A stretch of 64,000 bases of DNA from assembly GCA_016868315.1 (NCBI GenBank), contig VGHE01000004.1, positions 208,000 to 271,999 on the forward strand. Direction: 5' to 3'. Positions within the stretch are counted from its first letter, which is position 1. Each line of letters starts with the position of its first letter. The position numbers and the translations under genes are program-made. This document shows, one piece after another, positions 36,313 through 42,814 of this stretch. The stretch comes from Betaproteobacteria bacterium. GTDB lineage: Bacteria > Bdellovibrionota_B > Oligoflexia > Silvanigrellales > Silvanigrellaceae. Under the pieces are notes generated by a model. That model was not told the DNA's origin. It worked only from the letters and a program-made list of their open reading frames with translations, and searched no databases.

Positions 36313-37785
36313 TCAGTGCGACCATAAGGATTGTCCGGTGCTGCGACGGATGATTGCCAGGTCAGGTGGCGTGCGCAGGATGTTGCGGTTCCAGTAGCGG
36401 GTTGCAAGTCGAAAGTGCTCTGAACAAAGCGTGCAGGCATCTTGCCACGAGAGCGCCTGCCACTGTTGTTTGTCCGACATCGTGCGGTTTTTCTGCACCG
36501 GTGTGGTTGAAATCCAGCAGTCCGGCTGGTCGGTCGAATTATCCCAAAAGAAAAGAAGGCGCGGCACTGTTTGCGTGCCCACTGTGCTGCGTTCGGAAGT
36601 TCGATTTGTCAGCAGCACATGAAATTGTCCGTCTTCTGCAAACCACAGCGATGTACCGGAGTACCCGAGATGACCAAAGAACATGTTGTTGCGTTCGGGA
36701 GGCCACTTCTTCAGGCCTGCGGTAGATTCCGCGCTTGAGGGAGTGTCGAGTCCCCACGAAAACCGACCACGCTGCGAAGAAAACGCCTGCGGGCTGGCAA
36801 GAAGTTGTTGTTGGGTGGCAGAGAGTTCGGGAATTGTGCGGCTCACGTCCAACACGCTTCCAAACAACCCTGCATGCGAGGAGACCAGGGGTGCAACCCC
36901 GTGCGCTGACTTGAATTCACTCGCGAGAATATTGGCATTTGTATCGTGCACGCTGCCAAAGAAACCCGCGTGATTTTCAAGTTTTCTTTGCTCGTAGAGA
37001 TGCGCAACGACCTGAGAATTCAAATAGGGGAAAAACGGAATGGCTGTGCCGCTGCGCTCGGGATCGATGGAGGCGTGCCAAAAGTCAGAGTTAAACTTCT
37101 GGTTGAGCGTATCCACAGCGTGTGCCCAACCGCGGAACGGACTGAGGCCAAGATGCTCGATGATTCGCGCCAGCAGGTAATAATTGAGGTCTGAATAAAC
37201 GGTGTTTTCTGAGGGTTCTTGTGGAGCCCTTTCCAGTATTGAGCGGGTGAGATTGAACTGTGCAGCACGCGTCAGTGAGCCATCTTGGTCACGCGCCAAA
37301 TCTCCCAGGCGACCGGTTGTGCGCGTCTTGCCACCCTTTTCACCAAAATTCCAAAGCGCACGTCCGAACCAGCACCAGGCTGGCAGACCGCTGCGGTGAC
37401 TCAACACGTGCCCCAGGGTCAGCTTCGGCCGCTGCTCGGCCCAGATTTTGAGTGCCTGACCTTCTTCTGACCGTGGCTCGATGAGCGTTGCTAGAGGAGC
37501 TCCGGCAAGGATCAGTGGGTCAGCATTTAGAGCGTGCCGCAGCCAAAGGTTCGCTAAAAGCGGCTTTGTTAGACTTGCCAAGTCGAATGCGGGAAACCAG
37601 GGTTTTCTGCCATAGACCCCGCCCGAGGGGGTGTCGAGATCGAGAAGCCAATCGGGAGGGCACGCCTCGTCTGCATAAAGAGCGCACCAGTTTCCCTCCC
37701 GGTTCGCGCACGCCCAGGATGTAAAAGTTCCCCGCTCAACCTCCAGCTCGAGGCTGTTAATCAGGGAGGTGTGTGGTAGAGCCAT
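36313..37785 (-). CDS. Serine hydrolase, class C beta-lactamase/esterase family
   Basis: 490 residues, no signal peptide seen. The catalytic SxxK is SLTK (71-74), followed by YSD (197-199 in VYSDLN) and a third motif near HLGYSG (about 383). The fold is shared by class C beta-lactamases, D-aminopeptidases and EstB-like esterases; without a signal peptide a cytosolic esterase or peptidase is more likely than a beta-lactamase (inference). GGAG precedes the ATG. It is divergent from nadC, with a 102-base shared promoter gap, and 56 bases upstream of the export operon. Confidence 0.8.
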   Translation of the reverse strand: MALPHTSLINSLELEVERGTFTSWACANREGNWCALYADEACPPDWLLDLDTPSGGVYGRKPWFPAFDLASLTKPLLANLWLRHALNADPLILAGAPLATLIEPRSEEGQALKIWAEQRPKLTLGHVLSHRSGLPAWCWFGRALWNFGEKGGKTRTTGRLGDLARDQDGSLTRAAQFNLTRSILERAPQEPSENTVYSDLNYYLLARIIEHLGLSPFRGWAHAVDTLNQKFNSDFWHASIDPERSGTAIPFFPYLNSQVVAHLYEQRKLENHAGFFGSVHDTNANILASEFKSAHGVAPLVSSHAGLFGSVLDVSRTIPELSATQQQLLASPQAFSSQRGRFSWGLDTPSSAESTAGLKKWPPERNNMFFGHLGYSGTSLWFAEDGQFHVLLTNRTSERSTVGTQTVPRLLFFWDNSTDQPDCWISTTPVQKNRTMSDKQQWQALSWQDACTLCSEHFRLATRYWNRNILRTPPDLAIIRRSTGQSLWSH

Positions 37786-37887: not shown

Positions 37888-38844
37888 GTGAAGCAGGAAA
37901 AAAAACCAGAAAATGAACTGACTCGTACAAGCGTAGAGCGGCAGATCCTCAGTAGCCTCGGAATGACTCCCGCTCGCTTGCAGCGCGATGTGGATGCTTG
38001 GCTGGAAGAGGATTTTGGTGGTGGGGATCCGAGTGTCTGGACCCAGTCCGCACTGGGAACGCGCATGCGTGTTGAGATTGTCGCCAAGCAGGAGTTCATC
38101 TTGTGTGGCCTCCCATTCATGGCTCTGATTTTTCAAAAAACGCACGGCCATATTCCTGTTCAGTTGCACTCGACCTTCAATGACGGTGAGACCGTGCGGC
38201 GCGGCGACATTATTCTTTCCGGCGAGGGAGATGCAGCAGCTCTTCTGTTGGGAGAACGCGTGGCATTGAATTTGGCTGCACGCCTCAGCGGAATTGCAAA
38301 CAAAACCCACGCCATGAAACTTTTGGTCGAGAGAGCCTCGGCCAGACAGAATTTGGGTGCACCGCAGCTCCTTGAAACCCGCAAGACCACTCCTGGTCTG
38401 CGCCTCTACGAAAAGTATGCAACCCGTGTCGGTGGTGCGCGCAACCATCGTCATGCACTCGATACCGGTCTTATGCTGAAGGAAAATCATTTGCGCAGTT
38501 TTGGCGGAGTGAGCGGCGCTCTTGGCAAGGCTCGTGCAAACGCACCCATTCTGACACGTGTAGAAATTGAAGTGTCCAACCTGCGTGAGTTTGCTGAAGC
38601 ACTCGAAGGTGGAGCAGACGTCATCATGCTCGATAATTTTTCCGTGCAGGACATTCAATCTGCGGTTGAATTGCGGAAAGATCGCAGACGTTCAGTGGCG
38701 CTCGAGGTGAGTGGAAATTTAACAGAAGAAAACATTGCAGCAGTTGCTCAACTTGGCGTTGATTATTTGAGCTCGGGCGCTCTCATACACCAAGCTACGT
38801 GGGTTGACATGAGTCTGCAGCTCTATCCAATAGGCCAGAAATGA
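37888..38844 (+). CDS. nadC: Nicotinate-nucleotide pyrophosphorylase (carboxylating)
   Basis: Converts quinolinate and PRPP to nicotinate mononucleotide in NAD synthesis. The 318-residue protein has the expected layout: LEEDFGGGDPS near the N-terminus, ERVALNLAARLSGIA, the LETRKTTPGLR phosphoribosyl-binding loop, GGARNHRHAL, MLKENHL, EIEVSN and VDYLSSGAL. The start is GTG, with GGGAGCAGGG upstream. The stop overlaps the fusion gene as ATGA. Confidence 0.94.
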   Translation: MKQEKKPENELTRTSVERQILSSLGMTPARLQRDVDAWLEEDFGGGDPSVWTQSALGTRMRVEIVAKQEFILCGLPFMALIFQKTHGHIPVQLHSTFNDGETVRRGDIILSGEGDAAALLLGERVALNLAARLSGIANKTHAMKLLVERASARQNLGAPQLLETRKTTPGLRLYEKYATRVGGARNHRHALDTGLMLKENHLRSFGGVSGALGKARANAPILTRVEIEVSNLREFAEALEGGADVIMLDNFSVQDIQSAVELRKDRRRSVALEVSGNLTEENIAAVAQLGVDYLSSGALIHQATWVDMSLQLYPIGQK

Positions 38845-41840
38845 AAGCCCTTTTTCGAGATGAAACAACCTCCACCATGGACTGGGCACGTGAGTGTGTC
38901 ACACAGGGCGGAGTGAGCGAACCCTTTGTGGTGATGGCTCGCATGCAGACAGCCGGACGTGGACGTGGCGGAAGCACCTGGGTGCAAGGTTCTGTGGGTG
39001 CACTCGAAAGTGAGCTCTCCTCTGCGGCTTATTTGGCTCATGCGAGTTTGCCAGACGCAGTTGCAGCGCACGGATGTTTTGGTCCGTGCACATTTGTTTT
39101 TCCGGCCAGCGCGATCCGAATTCCCTTGACCTGGATGAGTCTTGCTGTGGGCTGTGCGCTCTTGGATGCAATTGAATCTGTGCGTCGACGGCTCGAAAAT
39201 CAACTCGGATTTGTGAAGCTCTTTCCGAGTAAAGATCTTTATGAACCTCGCATCAAATGGCCCAATGATCTGTGGGCTTGGCCAACATCCGGGCGCGCTT
39301 CCGACCAAAACCGCGGTCGAAAAATTGCAGGAGTGCTCTGTGAATCTTCTTTCCGTGGCGATGTTCTGCAGAACGTCACTGTCGGCATTGGTCTGAATAC
39401 ATTTTCAGCTCCTGCAACCGTTTTTCACTCCGGCTGCCTGCTTGATATGTGGGGAGTGTCTCCCAAATCGATTTCACCTGCGCAGGAGCGCCAGGTCGAA
39501 GTCTTATTGGCAGAGGAGATTGAACGAGAGTTGGCCGACTATCTCGGCGTACAGCGCTCGGTCGAACAACTTCAGTCCCTCGTGCTTGAACGCTCGCTCC
39601 CGCCTGGGACACTCATGAGTGTGAACAAAGGAGAGGTCAGCGGAGCTTTTGTTGGCCTTTCTGCTGAGGGCGGCCTTTTGCTCGAGGGATTCAAGGAGCC
39701 CGTTTTGTCGGGCGACGTTGGATTGCCACGCTTTGAGAATATGATTTCTGCCCTCCCAGCTTCCACATCTCGGGCTGTTCAGGCGCGTCTGTGTCTCGAT
39801 TTTGGCAATAGCCATATTCATTGGCGCTGTGAATCGAGCCAGGGTGTTCTGCAAGGTCATCTGCCTTGGAATCTTGTCGAAAAGAAAACAGTTCAAGATC
39901 CACGTGCTTTTGCGCGCCTCGAATTTTCGCGTGAGGTTGCTGAGCACCTGAGGCAAAGTCTGCAGGTTGAGTTGGTTTGGTCTGCCGTATCGCATGCCGG
40001 GATGACTGCAAAGTTCGTTGCGGCCACGGAGAATTTACTTGTGGCGCATTCTCCTGGGCGCGAGATGGCGTTGCATCCTTTGCACGCCGACGAAATTCTT
40101 CAGGCCTGTGCGCTGGCTGCAGATTATGCGCCCGAGCAGATGGGTGTTGACCGAGCTTTGCAGGCCTGGATCGCTGCGCGCGAGGCGCGTGCTGCGGCAT
40201 CGTCTGTGGCTGTGCTTTCTTCCGGCACCGCGCTCACGGGATTGGTGGTCAGTGCACATGGGCGCATTGTTGAAAGTTTTATTCTTCCGGGTGCCGTTCT
40301 TGGATTGGCTGCGCTTCACGAAAAGACCGCTCGTCTTCCGCATGTCTCTTTGCCACGCATGCTACCTGAGATACGCGAGGAACCACCCTTCAACACCCAG
40401 CAGTCGATGCTGCGGGGTTTAACTCTGCAGACGCTTGGGTTGGTCTCGAGTCTTGTGCAATTGCACGATGTCCGCACTCTCGTGCTCACCGGTGGCGGAG
40501 CTGAGACGCTCTCCCAGCTGATTGAAAAAGAGTTTCCCCTCACTGTTCGAACCGAACAGGATCTTGTTCTTAAGGCCATGTCGGATTTCATTGCGCACCA
40601 GAGCCAGACTCGTTTTCGGTTGATGGCTGATGACGGTGAGACTGACTCAGGTGTGCCCGAGAAGGTTCTCCAGAGCATGCTTCGAGCGCGTCTAAGCAAG
40701 CGCAGAAGCCAACGTGTTGCGCTTGATTTGGCGCACTTTCGGCGCCTGGGCGGTCGTCTTGAGCACCTGGGTGTGGGACTCCGGATCGACCGCCACCTTG
40801 CAGAAAAGTTCAAATTTCACACCCGCGATCTTTGGCGCGAGCGAGTTGATCTTGGTGAGGTGATGATCGAGCAGAATTCACCTAAAAATCACCTGACTGA
40901 TTCCGCTCCTGCGGCACTTATCAACATCAAATCCACATACGTCTTAAAGCAGGGAGACCAGGTTTGGCTGTTCCATCCGCCGGAGTATGAGCCCGACATG
41001 GCAACCCATGTTGAAGTTGTGCACGACGATGGTGATGCAGCTGTTTTCTGCAAGCCAGGAAATTTGGTTGTGCATGCAGCCGGTTTGTACGGTAAAAACA
41101 CGTTTATCGAAATTGCCAAGAAAATGGGATTTGCAGATGCCGCACCCGTGCACCGTATCGACCGCGAAACCTCGGGATTGCTTGTGTGTGCCCGTTCGAC
41201 TCCTCTGCGGAGGGATCTCTCACTCAGTTTTCGTGATGCCTCGGTGAAGAAAATGTATCTTGCAGTGACCCGCGGTGGTCCAGAGGTTCCGCAACATTTT
41301 CGTGTAAATTTTCCTATCGGAAACGCCATAAACTCTCGGATTCGATTGAAGCTTTGGCACAACCCAGATGATGGACTTGATGCGCTGACTCATTGCGTGC
41401 GACTTTCGTGCTGGAACGATTACACACTGTTTGCCTGTCTTCCTCAAACGGGCCGCACCAACCAGATTCGAGTCCATCTTGCGGCCATTGGTCATTGGAT
41501 TGTGGGCGATAAGATGTATCACCCCGATGAGGAGGTTTTTCTCAGGTTTTATGAAGAAGGTTATACTGATTTCGTTGCTGAGAATGCTTTGTTGCCGCGC
41601 CACTGGCTGCACAACACAGGGATTCAGTTTTTGGGTCAGCCAGAGTCACCCTTAGGTCGTGCACCGGTGATTGCGCCTCTCACAGAAGATCTTTTGGTGC
41701 ACGCTCCGACGCGCGAACTCTTGCGTGTTGCTGGATTTCCGACCGAACCCGAAGCGCAAAAAAAGGCGTTTGCAAAACTTTTTGCGGAACTGGTTTCAAT
41801 TGATTTCACAAGAACAGAATTCATTGCGCCTGAGGCTTGA
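38841..41840 (+). CDS. Three-part fusion: biotin-protein ligase, CoaX-like kinase, RluA-type pseudouridine synthase
   Basis: One uninterrupted 999-residue frame. Residues about 1-300 are BirA-like (QTAGRGRGG, IKWPNDLW, RKIAGVLCE, VGIGLNT). Residues about 315-600 are like type III pantothenate kinase CoaX (LDFGNSH near 318, MGVDRALQAW near 435, SSGTALTG near 460, LTGGGAE near 550). Residues about 645-985 hold an S4 segment (RIDRHLAEKF) and an RluA catalytic domain (VHRIDRETSGLLV near 770; QTGRTNQIRVHL). BirA attaches biotin, CoaX starts CoA synthesis, and RluA modifies uridines in RNA. The CoaX part lacks two of its usual aspartates. The ATG overlaps nadC as ATGA. Confidence 0.9.
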   Translation: MKALFRDETTSTMDWARECVTQGGVSEPFVVMARMQTAGRGRGGSTWVQGSVGALESELSSAAYLAHASLPDAVAAHGCFGPCTFVFPASAIRIPLTWMSLAVGCALLDAIESVRRRLENQLGFVKLFPSKDLYEPRIKWPNDLWAWPTSGRASDQNRGRKIAGVLCESSFRGDVLQNVTVGIGLNTFSAPATVFHSGCLLDMWGVSPKSISPAQERQVEVLLAEEIERELADYLGVQRSVEQLQSLVLERSLPPGTLMSVNKGEVSGAFVGLSAEGGLLLEGFKEPVLSGDVGLPRFENMISALPASTSRAVQARLCLDFGNSHIHWRCESSQGVLQGHLPWNLVEKKTVQDPRAFARLEFSREVAEHLRQSLQVELVWSAVSHAGMTAKFVAATENLLVAHSPGREMALHPLHADEILQACALAADYAPEQMGVDRALQAWIAAREARAAASSVAVLSSGTALTGLVVSAHGRIVESFILPGAVLGLAALHEKTARLPHVSLPRMLPEIREEPPFNTQQSMLRGLTLQTLGLVSSLVQLHDVRTLVLTGGGAETLSQLIEKEFPLTVRTEQDLVLKAMSDFIAHQSQTRFRLMADDGETDSGVPEKVLQSMLRARLSKRRSQRVALDLAHFRRLGGRLEHLGVGLRIDRHLAEKFKFHTRDLWRERVDLGEVMIEQNSPKNHLTDSAPAALINIKSTYVLKQGDQVWLFHPPEYEPDMATHVEVVHDDGDAAVFCKPGNLVVHAAGLYGKNTFIEIAKKMGFADAAPVHRIDRETSGLLVCARSTPLRRDLSLSFRDASVKKMYLAVTRGGPEVPQHFRVNFPIGNAINSRIRLKLWHNPDDGLDALTHCVRLSCWNDYTLFACLPQTGRTNQIRVHLAAIGHWIVGDKMYHPDEEVFLRFYEEGYTDFVAENALLPRHWLHNTGIQFLGQPESPLGRAPVIAPLTEDLLVHAPTRELLRVAGFPTEPEAQKKAFAKLFAELVSIDFTRTEFIAPEA

Positions 41841-41842
41841 AG

Positions 41843-42814
41843 ATGTCTGGTTCAACTGCCTCATCAGCTTTCGCTCTCATCACTGACATTCATGGCAATG
41901 CCACTGCACTTGAGGCGGTGCTTGAAGATGTAAGGCAGATGCGTGCTCAGCACGGAACAGATTCGTTCGAGTTTGTTTGTTTGGGTGACAGCTTTGATGG
42001 TGGGCCAGACCCTCTCGCTGTTTTGCGGTCGTTGTCCGATCTTTCCTGTGTTCACCTGCGCGGCAATCATGAAGACTATCTGTTCCAGTACCAACTGAAT
42101 CCTCATGCCGATAAATTTCGCCATCCGTTGTGGAAGTTCATTCCTTGGACGGTCGACAAGCTCGGCATTGAGCTCAATACGTTCCGCACAAAGATGAGTG
42201 AGCTCTGGGTTTCAGAAGTGTGGAATTTGGCAGGCGTGCATGCAAGTCGTTCAAACAACGGCCGTGTTCCAGACTTCTTTGCGCACCAGAATGAACTGTC
42301 CTCTGATTTTATTGAGCACCATGAGGTCGTTGCTGCGGAGAAGATTTTTTTCAACGGTCACAGCCATTACTTGGGTCGGCATCGGCATACGTCACTGCCC
42401 GAGATCTGGTTTAATTGTGGGAGTGTTGGATATCCCTTCGTAAGCAAGATCCCCGACTGCCTCGATGCACCGGTGGCAACTTGGGTGTGGGTGGAATGTT
42501 CACTGATTCAGAGCCAAAGGCACGTTCGAGTGTGCAACAGGCGTGTTCCATATTCGTCTGATGCCTTGCTGCGCCGTTACATTGACTCTGGCGCACTCGA
42601 ACTTTGTGCGCCTTTTTCATTTGCCATTTTAGCTCAGAGTTTATTCAACACAGATGTTGTTTATCCTTTTTTTCAGCGGGTAAAAAAGAGCGACTACACC
42701 CCGGAAGAGATGGCACAGAGTTTGATCGCTGAGCTGCAGAAACAGAATGTTTTTGATCGGGTCAATGCCTTGTTGCGGCGTGCAGGTCTGCACGAAATTC
42801 GGGTTCGGGCATGA
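41843..42814 (+). CDS. Metallophosphoesterase
   Basis: 323-residue calcineurin-like phosphoesterase. Metal-binding motifs are in order: TDIHGN (about 14-19), LGDSFDGG (about 50), RGNHED (about 75) and FNGHSHYLG (about 175). Related small enzymes act as protein phosphatases or as diadenosine/cyclic nucleotide hydrolases. GAGG precedes the ATG; a TTG at 41837 is less likely. It lies two bases after the fusion gene and overlaps the Omp85-like start as ATGA. The substrate is unknown. Confidence 0.85.
   Translation: MSGSTASSAFALITDIHGNATALEAVLEDVRQMRAQHGTDSFEFVCLGDSFDGGPDPLAVLRSLSDLSCVHLRGNHEDYLFQYQLNPHADKFRHPLWKFIPWTVDKLGIELNTFRTKMSELWVSEVWNLAGVHASRSNNGRVPDFFAHQNELSSDFIEHHEVVAAEKIFFNGHSHYLGRHRHTSLPEIWFNCGSVGYPFVSKIPDCLDAPVATWVWVECSLIQSQRHVRVCNRRVPYSSDALLRRYIDSGALELCAPFSFAILAQSLFNTDVVYPFFQRVKKSDYTPEEMAQSLIAELQKQNVFDRVNALLRRAGLHEIRVRA

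Follow-up and report, generated by a model that had tools for sequence, protein, structure and literature searches.

A conserved open reading frame joining BirA, CoaX, and RluA domains in the Silvanigrellales, with a probable two-step origin

Gene organization and domain composition

In the window (the whole 64,000-nucleotide stretch of DNA that was analysed), one open reading frame (ORF) with zero internal stops over 999 codons encodes a biotin-protein ligase (BirA), a type III pantothenate kinase (PanK; CoaX), and an RluA-family pseudouridine synthase in succession (Table 1). This bears out the preliminary description, which had reported a single unbroken 999-codon gene of these three parts in an operon with nadC. 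The nadC stop and the fusion ATG overlap in the junction sequence ATGA, and this nadC-fusion synteny is kept across the family. The next gene downstream, for a calcineurin-like phosphoesterase that also neighbours the fusion in G001, G002, G003, and G005, overlaps the fusion stop in turn, so the genes form a tightly packed run. A separate RluA protein arising from an internal translation start was ruled out, as neither domain border of the ORF has an in-frame start with a ribosome-binding site. On the other side of nadC lies a divergent gene for a beta-lactamase-family serine hydrolase, whose position is kept in 10 other family genomes.

Table 1. Features of the window and of related loci (window positions unless a genome or locus is given)
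Feature	Location	Strand	Remarks
beta-lactamase-family serine hydrolase	36313-37785	-	divergent from nadC
nadC (quinolinate phosphoribosyltransferase)	37888..38844	+	directly upstream of fusion; TIGR00078 276 bits, over cut-off
BirA-CoaX-RluA fusion	38841..41840	+	one ORF, 999 aa, ATG to TGA
BirA catalytic and C-terminal domains	38841..39740	+	~residues 1-300; PF03099, TIGR00121, Foldseek
Type III pantothenate kinase (CoaX) domain	39777..40610	+	~residues 313-590; PF03309, PDB alignments, Foldseek
Linker	40611..40760	+	~residues 591-640
RluA-family pseudouridine synthase	40761..41837	+	~residues 641-999; PF00849, TIGR00005, PDB RluA/RluD matches, tree
Calcineurin-like phosphoesterase	41837..42814	+	PF00149; next gene downstream, overlaps fusion stop
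Short BirA ORF, G014	L047:1204-1824	+	206 aa; overlaps end of CoaX-RluA ORF
CoaX-RluA ORF, G014	L047:1814-3628	-	convergent with short BirA
Divergent type I PanK-like gene, G013	G013:C179:1866-2531 (L144:1456-2175)	-	240 aa
QueG-RluA fusion, G022	L059:6805-8730	+	641-aa ORF; QueG (DUF1730 and 4Fe-4S) and S4/RluA synthase

A Pfam scan of the protein returned BPL_LplA_LipB (PF03099; E-value 1.7e-11), Pan_kinase (PF03309; residues 317-540, 7e-22, 78.7 bits against a cut-off of 24.7), and PseudoU_synth_2 (PF00849; residues 734-882, 1.1e-21, 78.1 bits against a cut-off of 26.8), in that order and with nothing else, all above their gathering scores. The NCBIfam matches (TIGR00121, several type III PanK models, and TIGR00005) were each under the curated cut-off, indicating that every domain of the fusion is divergent.

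The preliminary description had credited all three parts with recognisable core motifs. This was correct for BirA, whose GRGRGG, KWPND, and K-x-AGVLCE motifs are intact and conserved across the family, and for RluA, which has an intact catalytic motif (HRIDRETSG, catalytic D774). CoaX keeps its DxGN and GxDR motifs, but the Asp of its DxGTA motif is replaced by Ser. The scan found no N-terminal helix-turn-helix in the BirA part, and the protein begins at the catalytic domain. Without a DNA-binding domain, this part would be a ligase only and no biotin repressor. The synthase had also been described as an S4/RluA enzyme, of which the RluA half was borne out. The S4 half is implied by the TIGR00005 alignment (141 bits against a cut-off of 193), which begins at residue 646 and so points to an S4-like N-terminal part; Pfam S4 was undetected in the fusion protein, though reported in a relative from G022. 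In an AlphaFold2 (AF2) model of the whole protein, the BirA and CoaX parts were usable, and Foldseek matched them to Mycobacterium tuberculosis BirA and to 5b8h/2f9w, respectively. The RluA part had a pLDDT of about 30 on a shallow alignment, and the model is useless there because only five sequences were admissible.

Conservation across the family

BirA, CoaX, and RluA were found in the same order in one ORF of ~1000-1150 aa in 12 of the 14 family genomes (Silvanigrellales), spanning 5 genera and including single-contig assemblies. This conservation rules out an assembly join or a missed stop. With GC3 also uniform along the gene (0.49-0.54), the chance that we are looking at an assembly artefact, or at separate genes merged by a missed stop or a frameshift, is negligible, and the same single ORF in 11 other family genomes excludes coincidence as well. 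Each domain is under purifying selection, with dN/dS of 0.03-0.22 wherever dS was estimable; saturation or too little divergence affected several of the comparisons.

Departures from this arrangement were few. In G004, the fusion gene is broken by two contig ends (L046, L048). G013 has a 765-aa ORF comprising BirA, the linker, and RluA, from which CoaX has been cleanly removed. In G014, one genome of a sister family, CoaX and RluA are fused, and a short BirA gene adjoins them in convergent orientation.

Origin of the fusion

We surveyed 58 genomes of the phylum, the same set as in the class search, and found CoaX in 52. Five genomes (G017, G018, G025, G038, and G056) gave no CoaX match. Beyond the family, CoaX mostly sits in BirA-CoaX ORFs of 474-615 aa that have no RluA and usually follow nadC directly. 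The BirA-CoaX order is the general state throughout the phylum, and the fusion has the same order at its N terminus. Three genomes, all from family f5, have a standalone CoaX (264-307 aa), and G026 has birA and coaX side by side as separate genes.

No RluA match was found near the birA-coaX or coaX genes in 28 phylum loci. This ruled out that RluA had long been the next gene after birA-coaX, and indicates that rluA came from elsewhere in the genome. The nearest relatives of the fused RluA are standalone synthases of ~310-390 aa encoded elsewhere in phylum genomes. A tree built by maximum likelihood placed all 15 RluA domains of the fusions on one branch (97/95), although long branches limit the placement of the G014 row. 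Sister to this branch were the standalone phylum synthases, and the two formed a group (100/99) apart from Escherichia coli RluA, RluC, RluD, and TruC and also from two further RluA-type paralogues of the host. The fused RluA shares with TIGR00005 and with these E. coli enzymes the HRxDxxTSG motif and the PseudoU_synth_2 domain, to which the TIGR00005 alignment would add a possible S4-like N-terminal part, but it belongs to a separate phylum subfamily marked by GDxxYHPxExxFLxYxExG.

The tree shows a single origin for the RluA addition, at the base of the order Silvanigrellales. The first step, early in the phylum, would have fused BirA to CoaX downstream of nadC. In the second, a formerly separate rluA-type gene would have been captured at the C terminus in the ancestor of the order. 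The simplest history would thus place BirA-CoaX first, followed by one rluA capture in that ancestor and then by the loss of CoaX in G013 and the separation of BirA in G014. Two cofactor enzymes in one chain would in this way have gained an RNA-modifying enzyme, through a two-step fusion of one origin whose history can still be traced.

The first of these steps has a known counterpart. Neisseria NMB2075 is annotated as a bifunctional biotin-[acetyl-CoA-carboxylase] ligase/pantothenate kinase (PMC5383966), in keeping with the earlier remark that BirA-CoaX fusions are known in some lineages. Like our protein, it carries the BirA and CoaX enzymes in one chain, but it has no RluA; the comparison covers the annotation of the Neisseria protein. 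With its extra 400-residue RluA part, the fusion is an extended variant of the bifunctional BirA-CoaX protein. The architecture had been called unfamiliar, and this impression held: within the phylum it was confined to one family in the 58-genome survey, and we found no description of RluA in one chain with BirA-CoaX in the open-licence papers that we searched. Biotin, pantothenate, and pseudouridine go unmentioned in a study of the related Spirobacillus cienkowskii.

Host enzymes and the CoaX active site

We checked the host genome (G000; 3.24 Mb, 94.8% complete) for separate copies of the three enzymes. Its single CoaX is the fusion domain, and it has one BirA; the other PF03099 member, a 243-aa frame, is probably LipB. 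There was no match to type I PanK in this genome, and CoaBC is present. The type II PanK search also gave no match in the host, but it gave none in any control genome either and is hence uninformative. With no other BirA, CoaX, or PanK-I, the fusion is the only biotin ligase candidate, and also the only pantothenate kinase candidate among the types for which a test was possible. The RluA part is not the host's only synthase: four further PF00849 members are encoded beside the fusion. In none of the 14 family genomes did we see the fusion's type of rluA outside the fusion.

The fused CoaX resembles standalone CoaX (T. maritima 3bex, P. aeruginosa 2f9t) in its DxGN and GxDR motifs, PF03309 match, and fold, and differs from it in having partners fused on both sides and in the replaced Asp of DxGTA. 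D320 of DxGN (DFGN here) and D437 of GxDR (GVDR here) are invariant in the family alignment. The DxGTA Asp, which is part of the active site in type III PanK structures, corresponds to T. maritima D125 in the PDB sequence alignment and is Ser in the window (LSSGTALTG). At this position, all but one of the fused phylum proteins scored have S, G, T, Q, A, or C, whereas three of the four unfused CoaX found in the phylum keep the Asp. The second acidic residue, with which the longer motif GTAxTxD or GTAxTxE ends, is kept in most fused proteins; one family member, for instance, has the Glu form GTAVTCE. The window's genus has L, V, and V at this position (TTxD) in three species, so both acidic residues are gone there and kinase activity could be impaired. 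Across L108-L135, the BirA-CoaX fusions of the phylum replace the first Asp of D-x-G-T-A-x-T-x-D and keep the second acidic residue, whereas the unfused CoaX mostly do the reverse. Such a fusion makes it testable whether the DxGTA Asp is required by a type III PanK.

One reading of the double loss is that CoaX of the window's genus has ceased to be a kinase and survives as a remnant with a structural or regulatory role, and that an undetected enzyme or salvage supplies phosphopantothenate. This would fit with the restriction of the double loss to that genus and with the deletion of this very domain in G013, and M. tuberculosis is reported to have a CoaX without function. However, DxGN and GxDR are invariant, CoaX dN/dS in the genus is low (0.07 and 0.22), and the host lacks PanK-I yet has CoaBC. 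We therefore regard a remnant as unlikely, and pantothenate kinase activity of CoaX in this genus as no more than likely.

G013 also speaks against a remnant, and amounts to a natural experiment in which the middle domain was removed and a different type of PanK is carried. Its divergent type I PanK-like gene scored 115 bits to TIGR00554, with PanK-I as 10 of its 11 PDB matches, and adjoins, on the same contig, a valS gene of this family; CoaBC is present as well. No other family genome has a clear gene of this type. The assembly is 72% complete, so the absence of another CoaX is uncertain, but the type I gene probably replaces the lost CoaX in an apparent non-orthologous replacement. The coincidence of CoaX loss and a clear PanK-I-like gene in one and the same family genome, and in no other, makes the middle domain most likely the family's pantothenate kinase, and indicates that the CoaX domain would have supplied this activity in the ancestor.

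One chain, three likely independent modules

Taking these results together, we consider it likely that this is a genuine trifunctional Silvanigrellales protein, with three probably independent modules on one chain and a two-step origin, where the activities and the independence of the modules are what we infer. BirA, at the N terminus, would biotinylate the biotin carrier proteins of the host; CoaX, in the middle, would phosphorylate pantothenate and so begin CoA synthesis; and RluA, at the C terminus, would form pseudouridine in an RNA. Expression would be shared with nadC, and no channelling would occur between the modules. The removal of CoaX in G013 and the separation of BirA in G014 argue against an obligatory coupling of the domains.

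The fusion could instead be a regulatory link through domain contact or allostery, with biotin or CoA status, for example, controlling RNA modification. In favour of this, domain order and linkage are conserved across the family, and no copy of this rluA type outside the fusion was seen in the 14 genomes. Yet G013 dropped CoaX and kept BirA-RluA, and in G014 BirA is a separate gene, so no domain pair is indispensable to another; the AF2 model, poor in its RluA part, predicted no interface. A regulatory link is accordingly quite improbable, and a stronger version, in which RNA pseudouridylation depends physically on the biotin/CoA enzyme chain and CoaX of the window's genus turned into a sensor or scaffold after its acidic losses, seems to us highly improbable. 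The preliminary description had stressed that cofactor genes are grouped here with an RNA-modifying domain. The grouping is real, but it reflects the old nadC-birA-coaX operon plus an added rluA, and no functional link to RNA is evidenced. Proteins of this kind make it testable whether multi-enzyme fusions need coupling or serve as mere co-expression devices. They also call for caution in annotation pipelines, where such a protein could be named after just one of its domains.

The same RluA subfamily has entered a second, independent fusion, with the epoxyqueuosine reductase QueG in G022 (Table 1). By analogy with this QueG-fused relative, there are weak hints that the RNA target of the fused RluA may be a tRNA.
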